Assembly: GCA_000237975.1 (NCBI GenBank)
Contig: CP003179.1
Location: 3,130,270-3,194,269 of the forward strand
Source of the DNA: Sulfobacillus acidophilus DSM 10332
GTDB taxonomy: Bacteria > Bacillota > Sulfobacillia > Sulfobacillales > Sulfobacillaceae
Length of the DNA: 64,000 nt
Direction of reading: 5' to 3'
In this document: positions 48,755 to 56,891 of the stretch, in pieces
Position numbering within the stretch: the stretch's first letter is position 1
Layout of the letters: each line of letters opens with the position of its first letter
Notes under the pieces: generated by a model
The model's database searches: none
Told to the model about the DNA's origin: nothing
The model's input: the letters and a program-made list of their open reading frames with translations, nothing else
Made by a program: the position numbers and the translations under genes

Positions 48755-49555
48755 TTAGCTATTCCGGCTGGATTTCCTGCCGCTTGCCGAAACTTTTTGA
48801 TATAACGACGGGGCCACCACCTGAAACCCGAAGTCGGCAAATTCCAGAAACGTTTCGGTCGCCCCCAGGAACAATAGGCCGCCGTTTTTAAGGGCCTCGG
48901 ATAACCGACTTAACACCTGCAACCGAATCTCCCGTTCAAAATAAATCAAGAGATTTCGGCATAAAATCGCATCAAATTCCCCGGGCAACGGATCCGTCAG
49001 GAGGTTATGGCGCACAAATCGTATGGCATTCGACCCGGACGATTTAACCGCCCAGTGATGGCCTTTAGCCTCCAGATAGCTTCGATAGGGTTGGGGAATT
49101 TTATCGACGTCGGCCGCCGGAAATTCTCCTTGTCGCGCTTTTTCGAGCACCAGATCATCACTGTCCGTGGCCAAAATCTCATAACGAAGTTTAAGATCCT
49201 CCATTAAAAGAGCGACCGACACGGCTTCCGCTCCCCAAGAGCAGCCGGCCGACCAAATCCGCCAATACTCCCCGCCTTGAGATTTTACCGCCTGACGAAA
49301 GCGCTCCCAATACTCCGGATCCCGAAAAAATTCCGTGACGTGAATGGTTAAATACGAATGAAACCGCCGATAGACTTCCGGGTCTTGCTGAACTGCCTGC
49401 ACAAATGCGGCCGGTCCCACAAAGCCTTCCCGTTCTAAAAACGTTGCAATACGCCGTTCTATTTGGGTTCGTTTGTATGCGGTCAAATCCAGTCCCCATT
49501 GACGGGACAGTTGGCCGATAAGCGCCCAATCGTGGTCATCGTAGCGGTACCCCAT
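48755..49555 (-). CDS. cheR: chemotaxis protein methyltransferase CheR
   Basis: A 266-residue enzyme that methylates receptor glutamates with S-adenosylmethionine. N-terminal helical domain, then HVTEFFRDPEYWERF, the SAM site IWSAGCSWGAEAVSVALLM, LATDSDD, and CRNLLIYF. The SAM motif has A in the usual E (GEE) position. It overlaps cheB by 20 bases and precedes fliN by 24. Confidence 0.93.
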   Translation of the reverse strand: MGYRYDDHDWALIGQLSRQWGLDLTAYKRTQIERRIATFLEREGFVGPAAFVQAVQQDPEVYRRFHSYLTIHVTEFFRDPEYWERFRQAVKSQGGEYWRIWSAGCSWGAEAVSVALLMEDLKLRYEILATDSDDLVLEKARQGEFPAADVDKIPQPYRSYLEAKGHHWAVKSSGSNAIRFVRHNLLTDPLPGEFDAILCRNLLIYFEREIRLQVLSRLSEALKNGGLLFLGATETFLEFADFGFQVVAPSLYQKVSASGRKSSRNS

Positions 49556-50597
49556 GTTGAATCACCTGTCTTAACCATAAACTGATGCGCCCAAGCGGCC
49601 ACACCGCATCGGCTGCGCCGGCCTCAAAAACCGCCCGCGGCATGCCCCACACCAAAGCGGTTTCCCGCGATTCGGCAATGACGGTCCCTCCCCGCTGATG
49701 CACGGCTAAAGCCCCTTGAGCCCCGTCTTCTCCCATGCCGGTCAAAATGACCACGCCCAAGTCGCGGCCAAACACGGAAACCGCATCGCTCAGGGTGACG
49801 TCGACCGACGGAATGACCCCATGCAGCCGTTCGCCCGACTCGCTCCAAGCGCCCTGACGGCTGACGCGCAGATGTTTGCCGCCCGCCGCCACAATCACCG
49901 GAGGCGGATCCCAAGGCACCATGTCCCCTTCCGGAGGCGACTCTTGAACCGGGTATCCCAACCGATCAGCCAACCGTTCGGCGAACGAACGGGTAAAGCC
50001 GGAGGGCATGTGTTGTACAATGAGTACCGGAATGCGGGGAGCCAACCGAATAGTTTCCAACAAAAACGACAACGCTTGCGGCCCGCCGGTCGAAGCCCCG
50101 ATGACGATCGCTTTGAATCCTTCGGTCCGTGGTTCCTTGTCGAAGGTGGTGCCTTTCTCGGGCTGCGGACCCTCAGACCCCCGCGGCGCCAAAGCCCGAT
50201 ACCGGTCGACAATTTGACGAACCATTGCATCCAATGTTTGATCCGCATGCGGCTTCGGAATAAAGTCGTTAGCCCCAGCCTCCAGCGCATCCCAGGTGGC
50301 CGCCGTGCCGGTATCGCTTTGGCCCGACATCATAAGAATCAATCCGGGCCACCGCCGCCTTAAAGCCCGGACCGCCGCCATCCCCCCCATGCCCGGCATG
50401 ACGACATCCATCATTACCAAATCCGGCTGAAGAAGCGGGACTACTTTTAACGCTTCTTCTCCGGAGGCCACGCTGGCCACCAACTGCCACCCTCGGCGCA
50501 CCAACCGGGATCCCAATTCATAGCGAAAAAAGGCGGAGTCGTCGACCACGACGACCCGCACTCCGCGATCCTCTGCCTCATTCATACCCGTTAGCAT
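49536..50597 (-). CDS. cheB: chemotaxis methylesterase CheB
   Basis: A 353-residue protein with an N-terminal receiver (phosphorylated D64 in VMMDVVMPGMGG) and a C-terminal methylesterase. The catalytic triad is S169 (IGASTGGPQAL), H196 (IVQHMPSG) and D291 (GMGEDGAQG). It removes methyl groups from receptors when phosphorylated by CheA. The ATG at 50597 has GAGG only four bases ahead; a second ATG four codons in is possible. Confidence 0.95.
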   Translation of the reverse strand: MLTGMNEAEDRGVRVVVVDDSAFFRYELGSRLVRRGWQLVASVASGEEALKVVPLLQPDLVMMDVVMPGMGGMAAVRALRRRWPGLILMMSGQSDTGTAATWDALEAGANDFIPKPHADQTLDAMVRQIVDRYRALAPRGSEGPQPEKGTTFDKEPRTEGFKAIVIGASTGGPQALSFLLETIRLAPRIPVLIVQHMPSGFTRSFAERLADRLGYPVQESPPEGDMVPWDPPPVIVAAGGKHLRVSRQGAWSESGERLHGVIPSVDVTLSDAVSVFGRDLGVVILTGMGEDGAQGALAVHQRGGTVIAESRETALVWGMPRAVFEAGAADAVWPLGRISLWLRQVIQHGVPLR

Positions 50598-50635: not shown

Positions 50636-51193
50636 CTATGCCGGCGCCTGTTCCAAACTCGGGATCACAACAATCTCACCCGACACCGATTCCCCCGTCA
50701 CTTGAAACAAGGCTTCCGTTAACAACACCGTGGTGCCCGGAGAAATTTCCTCCGTAATCGCCTCCGCCGAAGAGAGGAGAACCCGTGGGGTGGTCGGTTC
50801 CCAAACCGTCCGGAACAAATCCGAGAAGACGTTTAAAAACGCAGTGCCCACGACGTTACCGACTTCCGCCAATGCCGAAATCCCCATGTCGTCGAGCGGC
50901 AAATGCACCGGCTCTCCCATTAAAGCACTGACCAACCGTTGACTGTTCACATCCGAAAACAAGAGCAAAATATGTGCTTGAAATAGCCCCTGGGCACCGA
51001 GATGAATCGCATAAATGGGATTTGTGATCTTGTTTTTTAGCCGATCCGACATGGTTTTCCAGGTGAAGACAGTGACGTCCGTTTCGGTCACGGCAAAATC
51101 CAGCCCGCTAAATTGCTTTAACGCCAAACCCGCCTTGGCGAGTGCCGGAACCGAAGCCCGTTCCCAAACGGCTAAAATTTGCTGTGCCTCCAA
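50636..51193 (-). CDS. cheC: CheY-phosphate phosphatase CheC
   Basis: A 185-residue CheC/CheX/FliY-type protein. One clear active-site signature is seen, S-A-L-A-E-V-G-N followed by the conserved proline region (ISALAEVGNVVGTAFLNVFS), and a weaker copy at the N-terminus. It dephosphorylates CheY-P and can work with CheD; no cheD is in this operon. It starts two bases after the HD-GYP-like gene ends. Confidence 0.82.
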   Translation of the reverse strand: MEAQQILAVWERASVPALAKAGLALKQFSGLDFAVTETDVTVFTWKTMSDRLKNKITNPIYAIHLGAQGLFQAHILLLFSDVNSQRLVSALMGEPVHLPLDDMGISALAEVGNVVGTAFLNVFSDLFRTVWEPTTPRVLLSSAEAITEEISPGTTVLLTEALFQVTGESVSGEIVVIPSLEQAPA

Positions 51194-51195
51194 AT

Positions 51196-52245
51196 CTATA
51201 ATCCTCCTTCTGGTGCTCCATTCTTTTCGGGCTCGGGCCAGTCACGGCCAAGAAAATATCCGGTGATGACCCGCACATGTTGGTCGGGATCCTTGAGCGG
51301 CACCGTTTGCCCCCGGTCACGGCCATTGAGCATCCGAATCACCGGTCGGGTCGGCCAATCGTGCGGAATGTCCCACACGATCCCCACTTCCCCGCTCCCG
51401 AGCATAACAACCGCTCCTACCGAATAGGGAGCGACGGTCCGTTGCAACAATTGAACCAACTCGAGCGGAAAATCCATCCCCGCGCCGCCTACCATCCATT
51501 CGAGCGCCTCCTGAACCGGCAGGGCTGCCTCGTCGGTACGAAAGAGCAATGCGGCCATCAGTTCGGCCATGCCTAATATGCGGGCCCCGTGATAAATTTG
51601 TTCCCCTTTCAGGGGCGGATCGCCACTGCCGTCCCACCGCGCATGATGCTGGGTAATCGTCACCCGGGTGGTTGGAGGAACCGACGATAACGGTTTAATC
51701 CGGTCCACCAAGGGAGCCAAGCGATCCTTTTGCGGCAAGGTCACCGTGCCTTGTTTCATATCGTACTCTAATCCGGTTAAGAGAGCGGCGAGACCGTAAT
51801 CTTCAACCCACTTGCTATCAACCCATTGGGTCAGTTTCATCACCAGCCCGATGGTGTTAATCCACGCCACAAACGCCGGATTGCCTCCCCGATAGAGCGG
51901 GATCCATTCAAAGGCTCTACGGCTCGCCACAGGAAACGCCTCCGCTATTTCCCGAACCAGGCGGCGAGCTTCTATCAGGCCATCGCCCAAAAGCGCTTTG
52001 GGCCCTTGTTCCACCCACTCCGCCAACGGACGAAACAAGTGATCCGGAAACCACCAATGAGGCTCCACCGCTTCGAGACCAGGCCATTGTACGGCAATCA
52101 CGGGTATCGCGTTTTCCTGCAATCGATGAATCGTTTCCGGGTCTAAAACCTGTCCCCGCTCGGCAATAATCGCTCCGGCGCGGTCTCGTACCGTATCGGC
52201 CACCACGTCGCCCGGATGGCATTGCCCGACCGCCATGAATCGCAT
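51196..52245 (-). CDS. degenerate HD-GYP-like protein in the chemotaxis operon
   Basis: A 349-residue protein. Residues about 135-260 match the second half of an HD-GYP domain: QHHARWDGSGDPPLKGEQIYH and GARILGMAELMAAL. Key changes: the HD pair is absent (LEYDMKQGT in its place), HHE is HHA, GYP is GDP, and the late aspartate is lost. It is therefore unlikely to cut cyclic di-GMP and may instead bind it or act as a scaffold. The C-terminal 90 residues (VGAVVMLGSGEVGIVWDIP) form a small beta-rich part often attached to HD-GYP proteins. It lies between cheY and cheC. Confidence 0.72.
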   Translation of the reverse strand: MRFMAVGQCHPGDVVADTVRDRAGAIIAERGQVLDPETIHRLQENAIPVIAVQWPGLEAVEPHWWFPDHLFRPLAEWVEQGPKALLGDGLIEARRLVREIAEAFPVASRRAFEWIPLYRGGNPAFVAWINTIGLVMKLTQWVDSKWVEDYGLAALLTGLEYDMKQGTVTLPQKDRLAPLVDRIKPLSSVPPTTRVTITQHHARWDGSGDPPLKGEQIYHGARILGMAELMAALLFRTDEAALPVQEALEWMVGGAGMDFPLELVQLLQRTVAPYSVGAVVMLGSGEVGIVWDIPHDWPTRPVIRMLNGRDRGQTVPLKDPDQHVRVITGYFLGRDWPEPEKNGAPEGGL

Positions 52246-52644: not shown

Positions 52645-55389
52645 TTATTTCGCCCCGGCAAAAGCCGGCACATAGCGTTCGGCTTCGGTCGGATGCGGCA
52701 ATAACAAGCCGGCCGCCGTCCGCGCCAAACGGGCCGGATCAAATTTCGTCACAATGGCGTCCGCCTCGACTTGCTGAGCCCGATCCGCGTGCCAATGCCC
52801 CGACAAGGACGTGTGCAGCAATACCGGAAAAGACGCCGTCCGGGGATCGTGTTTTAATTTCTGGGTCAAGGTGTACCCGTCGAGTTGGGGCATCTCCACA
52901 TCCAGCACAAACAATTGGGGCAACGGTTCGCCGGATTCCACGGCCGCCCATAACTCCTGGCCGTCGCCAAAACTCCGGACGGTGACCCCTAAGGGCTCTA
53001 AAGCCTTTTCCACTTGTTGTCGCGCCACCCGGGAATCGTCCGCCAACCAGATCATCTGTCCCCCCATAGAGGGTACGCCCACCTGATCCGGTGCGGGATA
53101 GGCCGGGGGAGCCACTTGCGCCAAAATCTGCTCAAAATCGATTAATTGAATCGGCCCCAGTTCCGCATGGTCAATGAGACCGGTAAACCGGCGATGATCC
53201 GCGTCCGCCGCATCCAAAACCGCCGGCAGCGGTTCCACCTGATCCCAGCTCACCCGGACCATCCGCTCCACTTGGTCGACGGGGAAAGCCTGCACCGTAT
53301 GGTTAAATTCGGTGATGACGATCACTCCCGCGGTTTCCGGCTGCGGCAACCCCAACGCGCGATGGAGACTGACCACCGGCACCGTTTGTCCGCGGAGACG
53401 CAAGAAGCCGTCCAGCCACGGATGCTGACCCGGCACTTCCGTCACGTCCGCCCCCGGCAGGACCTCTCGGGTCTTGTAGACGTTAATGCCGTAGCGTTGA
53501 CCGTCACTTAACTGAAAGACCAACAGTTCCATTTGATTCGATCCCGCTCGTAAGACCGGATCGTCATGCACCCGCTCCCGCTCGCCAATCGCGGTCGGAA
53601 CCAACCGCCGCACGTCGACCATGAGCGCGAGGCGGCCGTCGCCTAATAGAGCCACCCCACTCAACCAAGGCGTCATTGTCAACCCGGCCACCGGTTTGAC
53701 CACGACCTCTTGTTGCCCGCGCACCTCATCGACCGCTAATGCCGCTTGCGTACGGCCGTCCTTCACCCGTACTACGTAATGGTCTTCATGGCTAACTGTC
53801 GCATCAAGTAACGCCGCCAACGGATAAACCGGTAAGGGGGCCTCTTGATCCGGAACCGCCGGTCGGCCCAATGCACTGCCTAATGCCGCTTGTGCCGCTT
53901 CTTCAATCCGTTCCACGGTTAAAATCGGGAGCCCGACGGTCCAAGGCCCGGCCTCCACAATTAGGGCCGTCATAATCGCCATCGTCATGGGAAGCTCCAA
54001 ATGAAAGGTCGTCCCTTGCCCCGGCTGGCTTTCGACCGTAATGGTGCCATGGATTTCGTCTAAAAAGGCCCGGACCACATCCAACCCGACCCCCCGGCCG
54101 GATAAATCGGTGATTTGTTCGGCCGTCGACACGCCGGGACGGAATAACAGCTCGGATAGCTGATCCTCCGTGGCCCGTTGAGCCTCGTCGGCACTGAGCC
54201 AGCCTTGCCGCACCGCCTTGTCCCGCAGCCGGCCCCAATCAATCCCTCGCCCATCGTCCACAATCCGCACATGGACATGGCCTTGAGAGGCTTCCGCACT
54301 GAGCCGGATGGTCCCGGTTTCCGGTTTGCCGGCACGGGTTCGCGTCCCGGGGTCCTCAATCCCGTGATCACAGGCGTTCCGTAATAAATGCAGCAGCGGT
54401 TCATGCAATCGGTCCATCACCAGTCGATCCAGTTCCGTTTCCCCGCCGCTGGTTTCCAACCGAATTTTTTTATTGAGCTTTCGGGCAATATCATGGACCG
54501 CCCGCGGATATTGTTTAAATAAGGTGTCCAACGGCAGCATGCGCGCCCGTAGGGTTAAATCCTGCAGGTCGAGCGCCCGGCGACGCAAATGGTCCAGGAC
54601 CCCTTTGGTCGTGGGATCGGCTTGGGAGCCCCACAAATGATCCAACTGCCCATGATCTAACAAGAGTTCCCCTAAACCTTCCAGGATGCGTTCCAGCGTT
54701 TCCGCCCCAATGCGAATCGTCGCCTCCCGCCGTTCGGGGCTGGTAACTCCCTTGGCGGTGTCGCCCCCGTCGGGGCTGACCTCCCCTGCGCTCTGGGCAT
54801 CCGACACGTCGACAACGTCCAGGGCTTTGGCGTTCGCCAAATCGTCCACCATCATCAGCGCGGCCCGGACCGCCTCTTCCGATAGGGTCGAGGGAATGCC
54901 CAAACGGCTCACCGTACCGGTCCAGTCGGATAACCGCTCTAAGGGGGGATCGCTAACCGTACCCGGCGCCAAATCGTGAATGACCTGCCAAGCTTGGTAC
55001 GCTCGCACCCCAGGCATTGCGCATTGCGGCGACCACTCGAGTTCCCACCAGACTAACGGTTTTTCCACCGCCACGGCGCGCCCTTCCAACTCCGCCCGCA
55101 GCGCGTCCACCGTGTCCAACACCAACTGCTGGAGTTGGGGGGTCCACCGCCAATCGGGCCGTCCCCGACGATCCATGGCGTCCTCTAAGTGGTGCGCCCG
55201 CTCGACCCATTCCGTCAGGCCGAGCATGCCACCGGATCCCTTCAACGTATGCGCGGCTCGAAACATGGCGTCCAAGGGCGGTGGCGTATCCAGCGCGCCT
55301 TGTTCCAACGCATTTAATAACTCGGTGGCTTCCTCTAAAAACAAGCTGCGTTCTTCGTCCGAATCCCATTTGACTTCGTGAAATCGCAT
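52645..55389 (-). CDS. cheA: chemotaxis histidine kinase CheA with C-terminal CheV-like module
   Basis: A 914-residue fusion. Residues 10-105 are the Hpt domain, phosphorylated H47 in AAHTLKGSGG. About 225-300 is the dimerisation helix pair. About 305-465 is the ATPase (NACDHGIEDPG; VDDGRGID; GRGVGLDVV). 470-605 is the first CheW-like domain. 617-765 is a second one that reads like CheV (GINVYKTREVLPGADVTEVP; VITEFNH). 778-897 is a receiver with D830 (FVLDVEMPQLDGY). The last two parts form a full CheV. A separate P2 domain is not obvious. ATG 55389 has GGAGGG six bases ahead. Confidence 0.93.
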   Translation of the reverse strand: MRFHEVKWDSDEERSLFLEEATELLNALEQGALDTPPPLDAMFRAAHTLKGSGGMLGLTEWVERAHHLEDAMDRRGRPDWRWTPQLQQLVLDTVDALRAELEGRAVAVEKPLVWWELEWSPQCAMPGVRAYQAWQVIHDLAPGTVSDPPLERLSDWTGTVSRLGIPSTLSEEAVRAALMMVDDLANAKALDVVDVSDAQSAGEVSPDGGDTAKGVTSPERREATIRIGAETLERILEGLGELLLDHGQLDHLWGSQADPTTKGVLDHLRRRALDLQDLTLRARMLPLDTLFKQYPRAVHDIARKLNKKIRLETSGGETELDRLVMDRLHEPLLHLLRNACDHGIEDPGTRTRAGKPETGTIRLSAEASQGHVHVRIVDDGRGIDWGRLRDKAVRQGWLSADEAQRATEDQLSELLFRPGVSTAEQITDLSGRGVGLDVVRAFLDEIHGTITVESQPGQGTTFHLELPMTMAIMTALIVEAGPWTVGLPILTVERIEEAAQAALGSALGRPAVPDQEAPLPVYPLAALLDATVSHEDHYVVRVKDGRTQAALAVDEVRGQQEVVVKPVAGLTMTPWLSGVALLGDGRLALMVDVRRLVPTAIGERERVHDDPVLRAGSNQMELLVFQLSDGQRYGINVYKTREVLPGADVTEVPGQHPWLDGFLRLRGQTVPVVSLHRALGLPQPETAGVIVITEFNHTVQAFPVDQVERMVRVSWDQVEPLPAVLDAADADHRRFTGLIDHAELGPIQLIDFEQILAQVAPPAYPAPDQVGVPSMGGQMIWLADDSRVARQQVEKALEPLGVTVRSFGDGQELWAAVESGEPLPQLFVLDVEMPQLDGYTLTQKLKHDPRTASFPVLLHTSLSGHWHADRAQQVEADAIVTKFDPARLARTAAGLLLPHPTEAERYVPAFAGAK

Positions 55390-55403: not shown

Positions 55404-55850
55404 TTAGGCGCCGGTAGCGTGAGCGACCGCCATATCCTGCAGTCGATCCGGCAAATCCTCGGCCCATTCCCATAACCATTCGTTCCCGGTCCGATAGGCG
55501 CGCGGGATCCACCCCGCCACATGCGTCGGCACCAATCCTTGCCACAATTCCGGTGGCAGAGGATTTTGCGGATTCCAGAGGCTTTCGACCTGATCCACGG
55601 CGACGAGTGCGGCTCCCCGATGTCCGCCCCAGCGAAGGGCCAACGTCACGTCTTCCGGCGGTAGATCGAGCGCCGGCCGTAACGTCAATACGGCCAGCGG
55701 CTGGCCGCGCACGACGGCGACCCCGGCGATCACGGACGGTGTGCGGGGAATCCGCGTGACCGACGGTTTCGCCAAGATCTCGGTAACGGATGACACCGGC
55801 GCACCAAACAAATAGGGACCCACCCGCACCGCGAGTAATTGCTCATTCAT
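55404..55850 (-). CDS. cheW: chemotaxis adaptor CheW
   Basis: A 148-residue CheW fold: LLAVRVGPYLFGAPVSSVTEI, SVIAGVAVVRGQPLAVLTLR and AALVAVDQVESL. It links receptors to CheA. The C-terminal 40 residues, rich in tryptophan, are longer than usual. GGGAGG lies eight bases before the ATG. It is the first che gene in the operon, and the 139 bases ahead of it show a small hairpin (CTGGA...TCCAG, about 55924-55940) but no clean promoter. Confidence 0.88.
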   Translation of the reverse strand: MNEQLLAVRVGPYLFGAPVSSVTEILAKPSVTRIPRTPSVIAGVAVVRGQPLAVLTLRPALDLPPEDVTLALRWGGHRGAALVAVDQVESLWNPQNPLPPELWQGLVPTHVAGWIPRAYRTGNEWLWEWAEDLPDRLQDMAVAHATGA

Positions 55851-55989: not shown

Positions 55990-56820
55990 TCATAAAACGC
56001 CGATCACGGCACCCCATACGTGTTGATAGGCGAGCACCGGGACGGCCATGGCGATCGTCGGTTGGCCATGATCAGCGATCAGGCCGAGGGAAAACGGGTG
56101 GGTTTCTCCAGCTAACGGAGGCAGGTCAGGGGGTTTCACCAGCAATCGATCACGAGGCGGGTTTAACCAGCCGGCATGACGAATTAACGCGATCCAGGCG
56201 GCCGACGGATAAAGCCAGGTTTTCATGCGCTTTCCCTCACGTTGATCGGGGTGACAGGTACTGATCAGAAAGCCGTTCATATCCGCGAGTAGGCATTGCC
56301 GGAAGATACCGGAGCGTTCATGGGCGACCGACAACGCCGTCGACGCCTCATAATCGAGCGCGGCATCCCAGTCCATGGCGATATGGCCGGATAGATCCGG
56401 CGAAAGTCCCCATCGACTGAGGCTTTGGTGCGGTGACCGCCAATGATAGCGAAACCGAAGGGTTTCCCAAGGAACCCACGCTTCGGCCAGATGACGCGTA
56501 TAGCGGGCGACGTTTTCTAACGCATCGCGCCATCGCGGCACGTCCTCGGCCTCCGGACGGCTGAGCCATGTCGTCAGCTGAACGCTTTCGGCTGTCATCG
56601 AGCCTTGGGTCACATCATCCCAGCTGACCGGCAAGGGGCCCCTCGGTCGCTCGAGCCACAGGGCAATGCGACCATACATCTCCCGCCCGGCCGGGTTCTG
56701 TTGCCATCCCGCCCGTAATACGGCTAATTCCGCATAAGCTAAAGCGAACCGATCAGGGAAAACCGTCGTTCCCTCGGCGCTTGGAGGAAAAGCGGGGGAC
56801 GGGGCGTCGCCTGGACCCAT
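55990..56820 (-). CDS. protein of unknown function upstream of the che operon
   Basis: A 276-residue soluble protein, rich in tryptophan, without a recognised family. Residues 20-160 are mainly helical. Residues 165-276 (FRQCLLADMNGFLISTCHPD ... PTIAMAVPVLAYQHVWGAVI) have the strand order of a small sensory domain such as Cache or GAF, ending abruptly at the last strand. ATG 56820 has AAGGTGA eight bases ahead. It lies between the divergent receptor gene and cheW, so it may be a sensor or adaptor of chemotaxis. That is inference. Confidence 0.6.
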   Translation of the reverse strand: MGPGDAPSPAFPPSAEGTTVFPDRFALAYAELAVLRAGWQQNPAGREMYGRIALWLERPRGPLPVSWDDVTQGSMTAESVQLTTWLSRPEAEDVPRWRDALENVARYTRHLAEAWVPWETLRFRYHWRSPHQSLSRWGLSPDLSGHIAMDWDAALDYEASTALSVAHERSGIFRQCLLADMNGFLISTCHPDQREGKRMKTWLYPSAAWIALIRHAGWLNPPRDRLLVKPPDLPPLAGETHPFSLGLIADHGQPTIAMAVPVLAYQHVWGAVIGVL

Positions 56821-56891
56821 CGGTCTCGTCACCTTCAATGCTGTCTTGTACTTTCGGTTTAAGTCAGTTTGTCCCGGGCGGCTAGGGTATT

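Follow-up and report, generated by a model that had tools for sequence, protein, structure and literature searches.

Free CheV, a phosphorylation substrate of CheA, uses its CheW domain to bind receptors (PMC12691637), and its receiver is needed for function (PMC340952). The role of this phosphorylation is unsettled, and adaptation, receptor selection and a phosphate sink are all considered. In Bacillus subtilis it is linked to adaptation (PMC340952), in Pseudomonas aeruginosa a subset of receptors is bound by the phosphomimetic form of CheV and not by unphosphorylated CheV (PMC12691637), and a phosphate-sink role has been proposed as well (PMC4742279). A long open reading frame of Sulfobacillus acidophilus DSM 10332, located in the 64,000-nucleotide stretch of contig CP003179.1 analyzed here (the window), raises the question of whether a CheA kinase can carry a whole CheV in its own chain, and what that CheV would do there. 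A sequence-only reading had claimed, at 52645-55389, a CheA fused to a complete CheV, and this claim was borne out by the reading frame, profiles, trees and the alignment of the junction.

Position and neighbours of the fusion gene

The reading frame starts with the ATG at 55389, which is preceded by GGGAGGGAG, a good ribosome-binding site, and cheW lies directly upstream. The operon-like run has the order cheW, cheA-cheV, cheY, HD-domain gene, CheC/CheX-like gene, cheB, cheR and fliN-like gene (Table 1). Because more than 20 genomes have the same fusion, an artefact of assembly or of a frameshift was ruled out. The HD-domain protein between cheY and the CheC/CheX-like gene (51196-52245, minus strand) matches PF13487, and a 282-aa ORF upstream of cheW (55990-56838, minus strand) is without a confident family match. 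According to the text of PMC10782961, only about 7% of comparable genomes combine a CheC/CheX-like protein, here with one phosphatase motif, with a receiver on a single CheA.

Table 1. Positions of the fusion, its domains and the neighbouring che genes in the window
Feature	Position	Strand	Evidence
Free CheW, 148 aa, divergent	55404..55850	-	PF01584, 46 bits, profile 1-65 of 138; genome-wide search
CheA-CheV fusion, 914 aa (P1-P2-P3-P4-P5 + CheV)	52645..55389	-	ORF and translation, Pfam, alignment of 17 full-length homologues
P1/Hpt, residues 15-99	55093..55347	-	PF01627, 57.5 bits
H47, predicted phosphorylated histidine	55249..55251	-	AAHTLKG motif; invariant in 17 homologues
P2 CheY-binding domain, residues 118-188	54826..55038	-	PF07194, 23.8 bits, just over the cut-off of 23, with the segment scanned alone; the model has helices and strands at 112-189
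P3 dimerisation helices, about residues 222-279	54553..54726	-	PF02895, 22.4 bits, just under the cut-off of 23; segment scanned separately, query approximate at its first letter (S for E222), effect thought negligible; two helices modelled at 229-281
P4 HATPase, residues 327-469	53983..54411	-	PF02518, 70 bits
W1, CheA P5, first CheW-like domain, residues 476-597	53599..53964	-	PF01584; profile scores as CheA P5
Linker and fusion junction, residues 600-618	53536..53592	-	pLDDT <50; aligns with CheV N-terminal segment ILLESGTNELE
W2, CheV-type CheW domain, residues 622-758	53116..53526	-	PF01584, 96 bits; CheV profile, trees
CheV-type receiver, residues 780-888	52726..53052	-	PF00072; CheV receiver profile
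D830, predicted phosphoacceptor	52900..52902	-	LDVEMP motif; invariant with D784, D785, T860, K882
CheY, 122 aa	52260..52628	-	PF00072, 109.8 bits
CheC/CheX-like protein, probable CheY-P phosphatase	50636..51193	-	NCBIfam CheC, 35 bits, below its cut-off; motif S-x3-E-x2-N at residue 106
CheB	49536..50597	-	PF01339 and PF00072
CheR	48755..49555	-	PF01739

The N-terminal part is a five-domain CheA

Pfam on the whole fusion protein returned the Hpt and HATPase domains, two CheW stretches and the receiver, at the residues listed in Table 1. The matches of the P2 and P3 segments and the strands and helices modelled there add to these domains, and the N-terminal 600 residues are therefore a classical five-domain CheA, in which P1 to P5 are present as in B. 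subtilis, Thermotoga and E. coli; what distinguishes the fusion from these kinases is the added CheV. W1 scored 64 bits as CheA P5 versus 3 as CheV. P2 is an extra domain that was absent from the parts listed in the sequence-only reading, and most receiver-bearing CheAs are described in the text of PMC10782961 as being without it. Compared with the PDB by sequence, the P2 segment gave no match, although Pfam did match the same segment when it was scanned alone. The full-length AlphaFold model is of low overall confidence (pTM 0.33), and domain packing cannot be read from it.

The C-terminal part is a complete CheV module

The profiles drew on sequences from outside Sulfobacillales, namely 61 free CheV, 80 CheW, 41 CheA P5 and 28 kinases of class F5. 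The second CheW domain (W2) scored 137 bits as CheV, 79 as CheW, 20 as F5 first CheW, 16 as CheA P5 and 12 as F5 second CheW, and the receiver scored 107 bits as CheV receiver, 63 as CheY-like, 58 as F5 receiver and 49 as CheB-like, indicating the CheV type for both. In the tree, one split (starred) separates CheA P5, the first and second CheW domains of F5 and W1 from CheW, CheV and W2, and the careful tree unites W2 with CheV (100/99). The sequence-only reading had itself named the contrary outcome, a second CheW domain grouping with CheA-type ones; when W2 was constrained to the CheA-type CheW domains, the tree test rejected this placement (p-AU 0.0135). The same test ruled out W2 as a duplicate of P5, and profiles and trees together ruled out an ordinary CheA-receiver hybrid. 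An origin from cheW, which often adjoins cheA in other genomes, was rejected as well, the CheV score exceeding the CheW score by 58 bits.

Residue-level comparison agreed with this assignment. Of the 24 positions with at least 85% conservation in the CheW domains of free CheV, W2 keeps 21, among them N618, E621, N636, K639, W715 and E753, at which most CheW have a different residue; in the receiver, 17 of the 22 positions conserved in free CheV are kept. The junction VLRAGSNQMELLVF aligns with ILLESGTNELEIVEF, an N-terminal segment of free CheV whose median distance from the first methionine of the ORF is 15 residues, so that nearly the entire CheV is present in the fusion. The model of W2 and the receiver is confident (pLDDT 85, pTM 0.82), and among solved structures it best matched CheW chains, which ranked above CheA P5, and receivers. 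On the other side of the balance, the nearest free CheV are distant, with at most 39% identity.

Judged from these sequence comparisons, about residues 612-897 are a complete CheV, consisting of CheW domain and receiver, and the CheV architecture that had been read into residues 617-897 thus holds in Pfam, profiles and trees. Two landmarks given at the same time were recovered, GINVYKTREVL of the second CheW domain at residues 634-644 and D830 of the receiver within LDVEMP. The fused part is a CheV module and not a CheV protein, since it is not a separate adaptor of ~300 aa. Across the 17 full-length homologues (40-72% identity), H47, D784, D785, D830, T860, S861 and K882 are invariant in all 17, so that the fusion is not a product of chance.

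CheW domains in the genome of the window

The fusion is the only CheA of this Sulfobacillus-type bacterium. In the window genome (99.99% complete) we found eight MCPs and only three CheW domains, two in the fusion and one in cheW, and CheD was not found there. The number of CheW domains is also exactly three in each of four further Sulfobacillus-type genomes (G337-G340); some relatives have more. The separate cheW, which had been noted as still present, was confirmed (Table 1). Its stem branch in the tree is long (2.93 changes per column), VVRG replaces the CheW motif NLRG in most fusion-bearing genomes, and the mean identity is 48.9% for free CheW versus 57.7% for W2; a divergent lineage (L016/L017) has kept a canonical CheW beside the fusion. 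This greater divergence of free CheW than of W2 in most genomes is consistent with W2 having taken over part of the CheW work.

Possible role of the fused CheV

The explanation that we favour, and hold to be probable, is a five-domain CheA with a complete CheV that would act as an in-chain phospho-adaptor, with feedback and perhaps in part as a sink. The kinase is joined in frame to the CheV via a flexible linker of about 19 residues. P5 and the CheV-type CheW domain would both enter the receptor baseplate, and each kinase dimer would come with adaptors of its own, fixed at 1:1. D830 would receive phosphate from H47, and whether the tethered CheV is phosphorylated would alter the receptor coupling of that kinase, giving a feedback beside the methylation by CheR/CheB. 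The receiver and CheY must be rivals for the phosphate, so that the receiver may in part act as a sink. By inference from free CheV, the module would function as it does there, with the ratio to the kinase forced to 1:1.

It is plausible that such a kinase could adapt within one chain, with a phosphate sink as a serious rival. With CheR/CheB and the CheC/CheX-like protein present, adaptation need not depend on the receiver, and because free CheW persists, the fused adaptor may be insufficient alone. A more specific form of the proposal, in which H47 phosphorylates its own CheV receiver and the coupling of the same dimer changes, so that each core unit has a built-in feedback and the array is made largely of CheA alone, is possible but doubtful.

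The domain order itself is known. Two CheW domains occur in about 8% of CheAs; almost all of these are in class F5, with a C-terminal receiver, and some in class F1, and the F5 kinases of Azospirillum, Azorhizobium and Caulobacter have the same order, Hpt-kinase-CheW-CheW-receiver, according to the text of PMC10782961. The fusion could accordingly be an ordinary F5 member whose CheV likeness is superficial: its order is identical, it has the two CheW domains and C-terminal receiver of the F5 layout, and although its kinase core lies outside F5 in the best trees, a joint clade with F5 was not rejected (p-AU 0.32). However, the homology of the module differs, since W2 scored 12 bits as F5 versus 137 as CheV and the receiver 58 versus 107, and the F5 second CheW domains fall on the CheA side of the starred split. 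The same profiles correctly called a real F5-like kinase of the same phylum (L276), whose second CheW scored 78 bits as F5 versus 12 as CheV. Profiles and tree split rule out the F5 class for the C-terminal module, and a mere F5 kinase is very hard to believe. Because the F5 kinases sampled here have a CheA-type second CheW and a receiver of another type than CheV, whereas both are CheV-type in the fusion, the fusion is, on homology, a second, independent route to the known layout.

The two other alternatives concern what the module does. The receiver might mainly drain the phosphate of H47 and speed signal termination, the CheW part being merely a tether. This role is proposed for most CheA receivers and some CheV, and is proposed or shown in several species (text of PMC10782961; PMC4742279); the receiver active site, invariant in the 17 homologues, and the tethering, which favours transfer, agree with it. 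However, 93% of genomes with a single receiver-bearing CheA are without dedicated phosphatases (text of PMC10782961), whereas a CheC/CheX-like protein carrying a phosphatase motif is encoded in the operon here, so that there is less need for a pure sink, and a sink alone does not account for W2 keeping the 21 CheV-typical positions. We consider the pure sink unlikely. It is also conceivable that W2 is a structural adaptor only, which fills CheW positions in the array and let the separate cheW diverge, with D830 phosphorylation being minor. The stem branch of free CheW, its VVRG and its lower mean identity are as expected from this, but in the L016 and L017 lineage a canonical CheW coexists with the fusion, and the invariance of all active-site residues of the receiver in the 17 homologues argues for phosphorylation. 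Such a purely structural role is improbable.

Relation to known systems

A C-terminal receiver on CheA, as in the fusion, is also present in the CheA-receiver hybrids, namely CheA of H. pylori and C. jejuni and FrzE; to our knowledge, these have no second, CheV-type CheW domain. Free CheV of the B. subtilis, Salmonella and Pseudomonas type has the same CheW domain followed by a receiver, the N-terminal segment and the active site, and differs in being a separate protein of about 300 aa, whereas the module of the fusion is covalently on CheA and hence at 1:1. In P. aeruginosa, CheW1 is two to four times as abundant as free CheV (PMC12691637). The fixed 1:1 ratio is at odds with the idea of CheV as a minor adaptor for a receptor subset. 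With CheV fixed 1:1 to the kinase, no free CheV and a single CheW, redundancy is removed, and the fusion is a simpler setting in which to test the disputed role of CheV.

The presence of CheW-CheW-receiver in class F5 lowers the novelty of the fusion. The word CheV is absent from the main text of Berry, Andrianova and Zhulin (PMC10782961), and the F1 CheAs with two CheW domains mentioned there may include Sulfobacillus-type fusions. In the papers covered by our literature search, no phrase such as 'CheA-CheV fusion' was found, and an earlier mention elsewhere is possible. The fixed one-to-one CheA-CheV fusion seems to be new; its parts are known. How a CheA layout with two CheW domains affects array geometry is an open question in the text of PMC10782961, and the fusion is a second independent route to that layout.

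Distribution of the fusion

The CheV module was found in 24 copies in 22 of the 151 genomes of the class, which belong to one order, three families and nine genera and include Sulfobacillus thermotolerans, S. harzensis and S. acidophilus, with the kinase in the same ORF. All 24 copies are in long fused ORFs (661-1119 aa), and the profile search found no free CheV among the 151 genomes. In 299 genomes of the phylum, the CheV profile detected about 25 free CheV (some 310 aa) and no CheV fused to CheA beyond the window's own. Among 200 Pseudomonadota genomes searched at E 1e-25, every match among those listed was in an ORF shorter than 600 aa. The fusion is fixed in one order, that of Sulfobacillus and its kin. 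In the fusions, the W2-receiver parts group as a single clade (99/92) that lies beside and not inside the sampled free CheV, and the kinase parts likewise form one clade, which points to one origin of the fused CheV part and subsequent inheritance.

Two genomes, G008 and G015, have a second copy of the fusion each. That of G015 (L278, 3443-5425) is N-terminally truncated, with 661 codons and no Hpt or P2 in frame, and a full copy is also present. In a second che cluster of G015 (L279, 14070-15836, minus strand), a protein with three CheW domains is located beside another CheA without a receiver.
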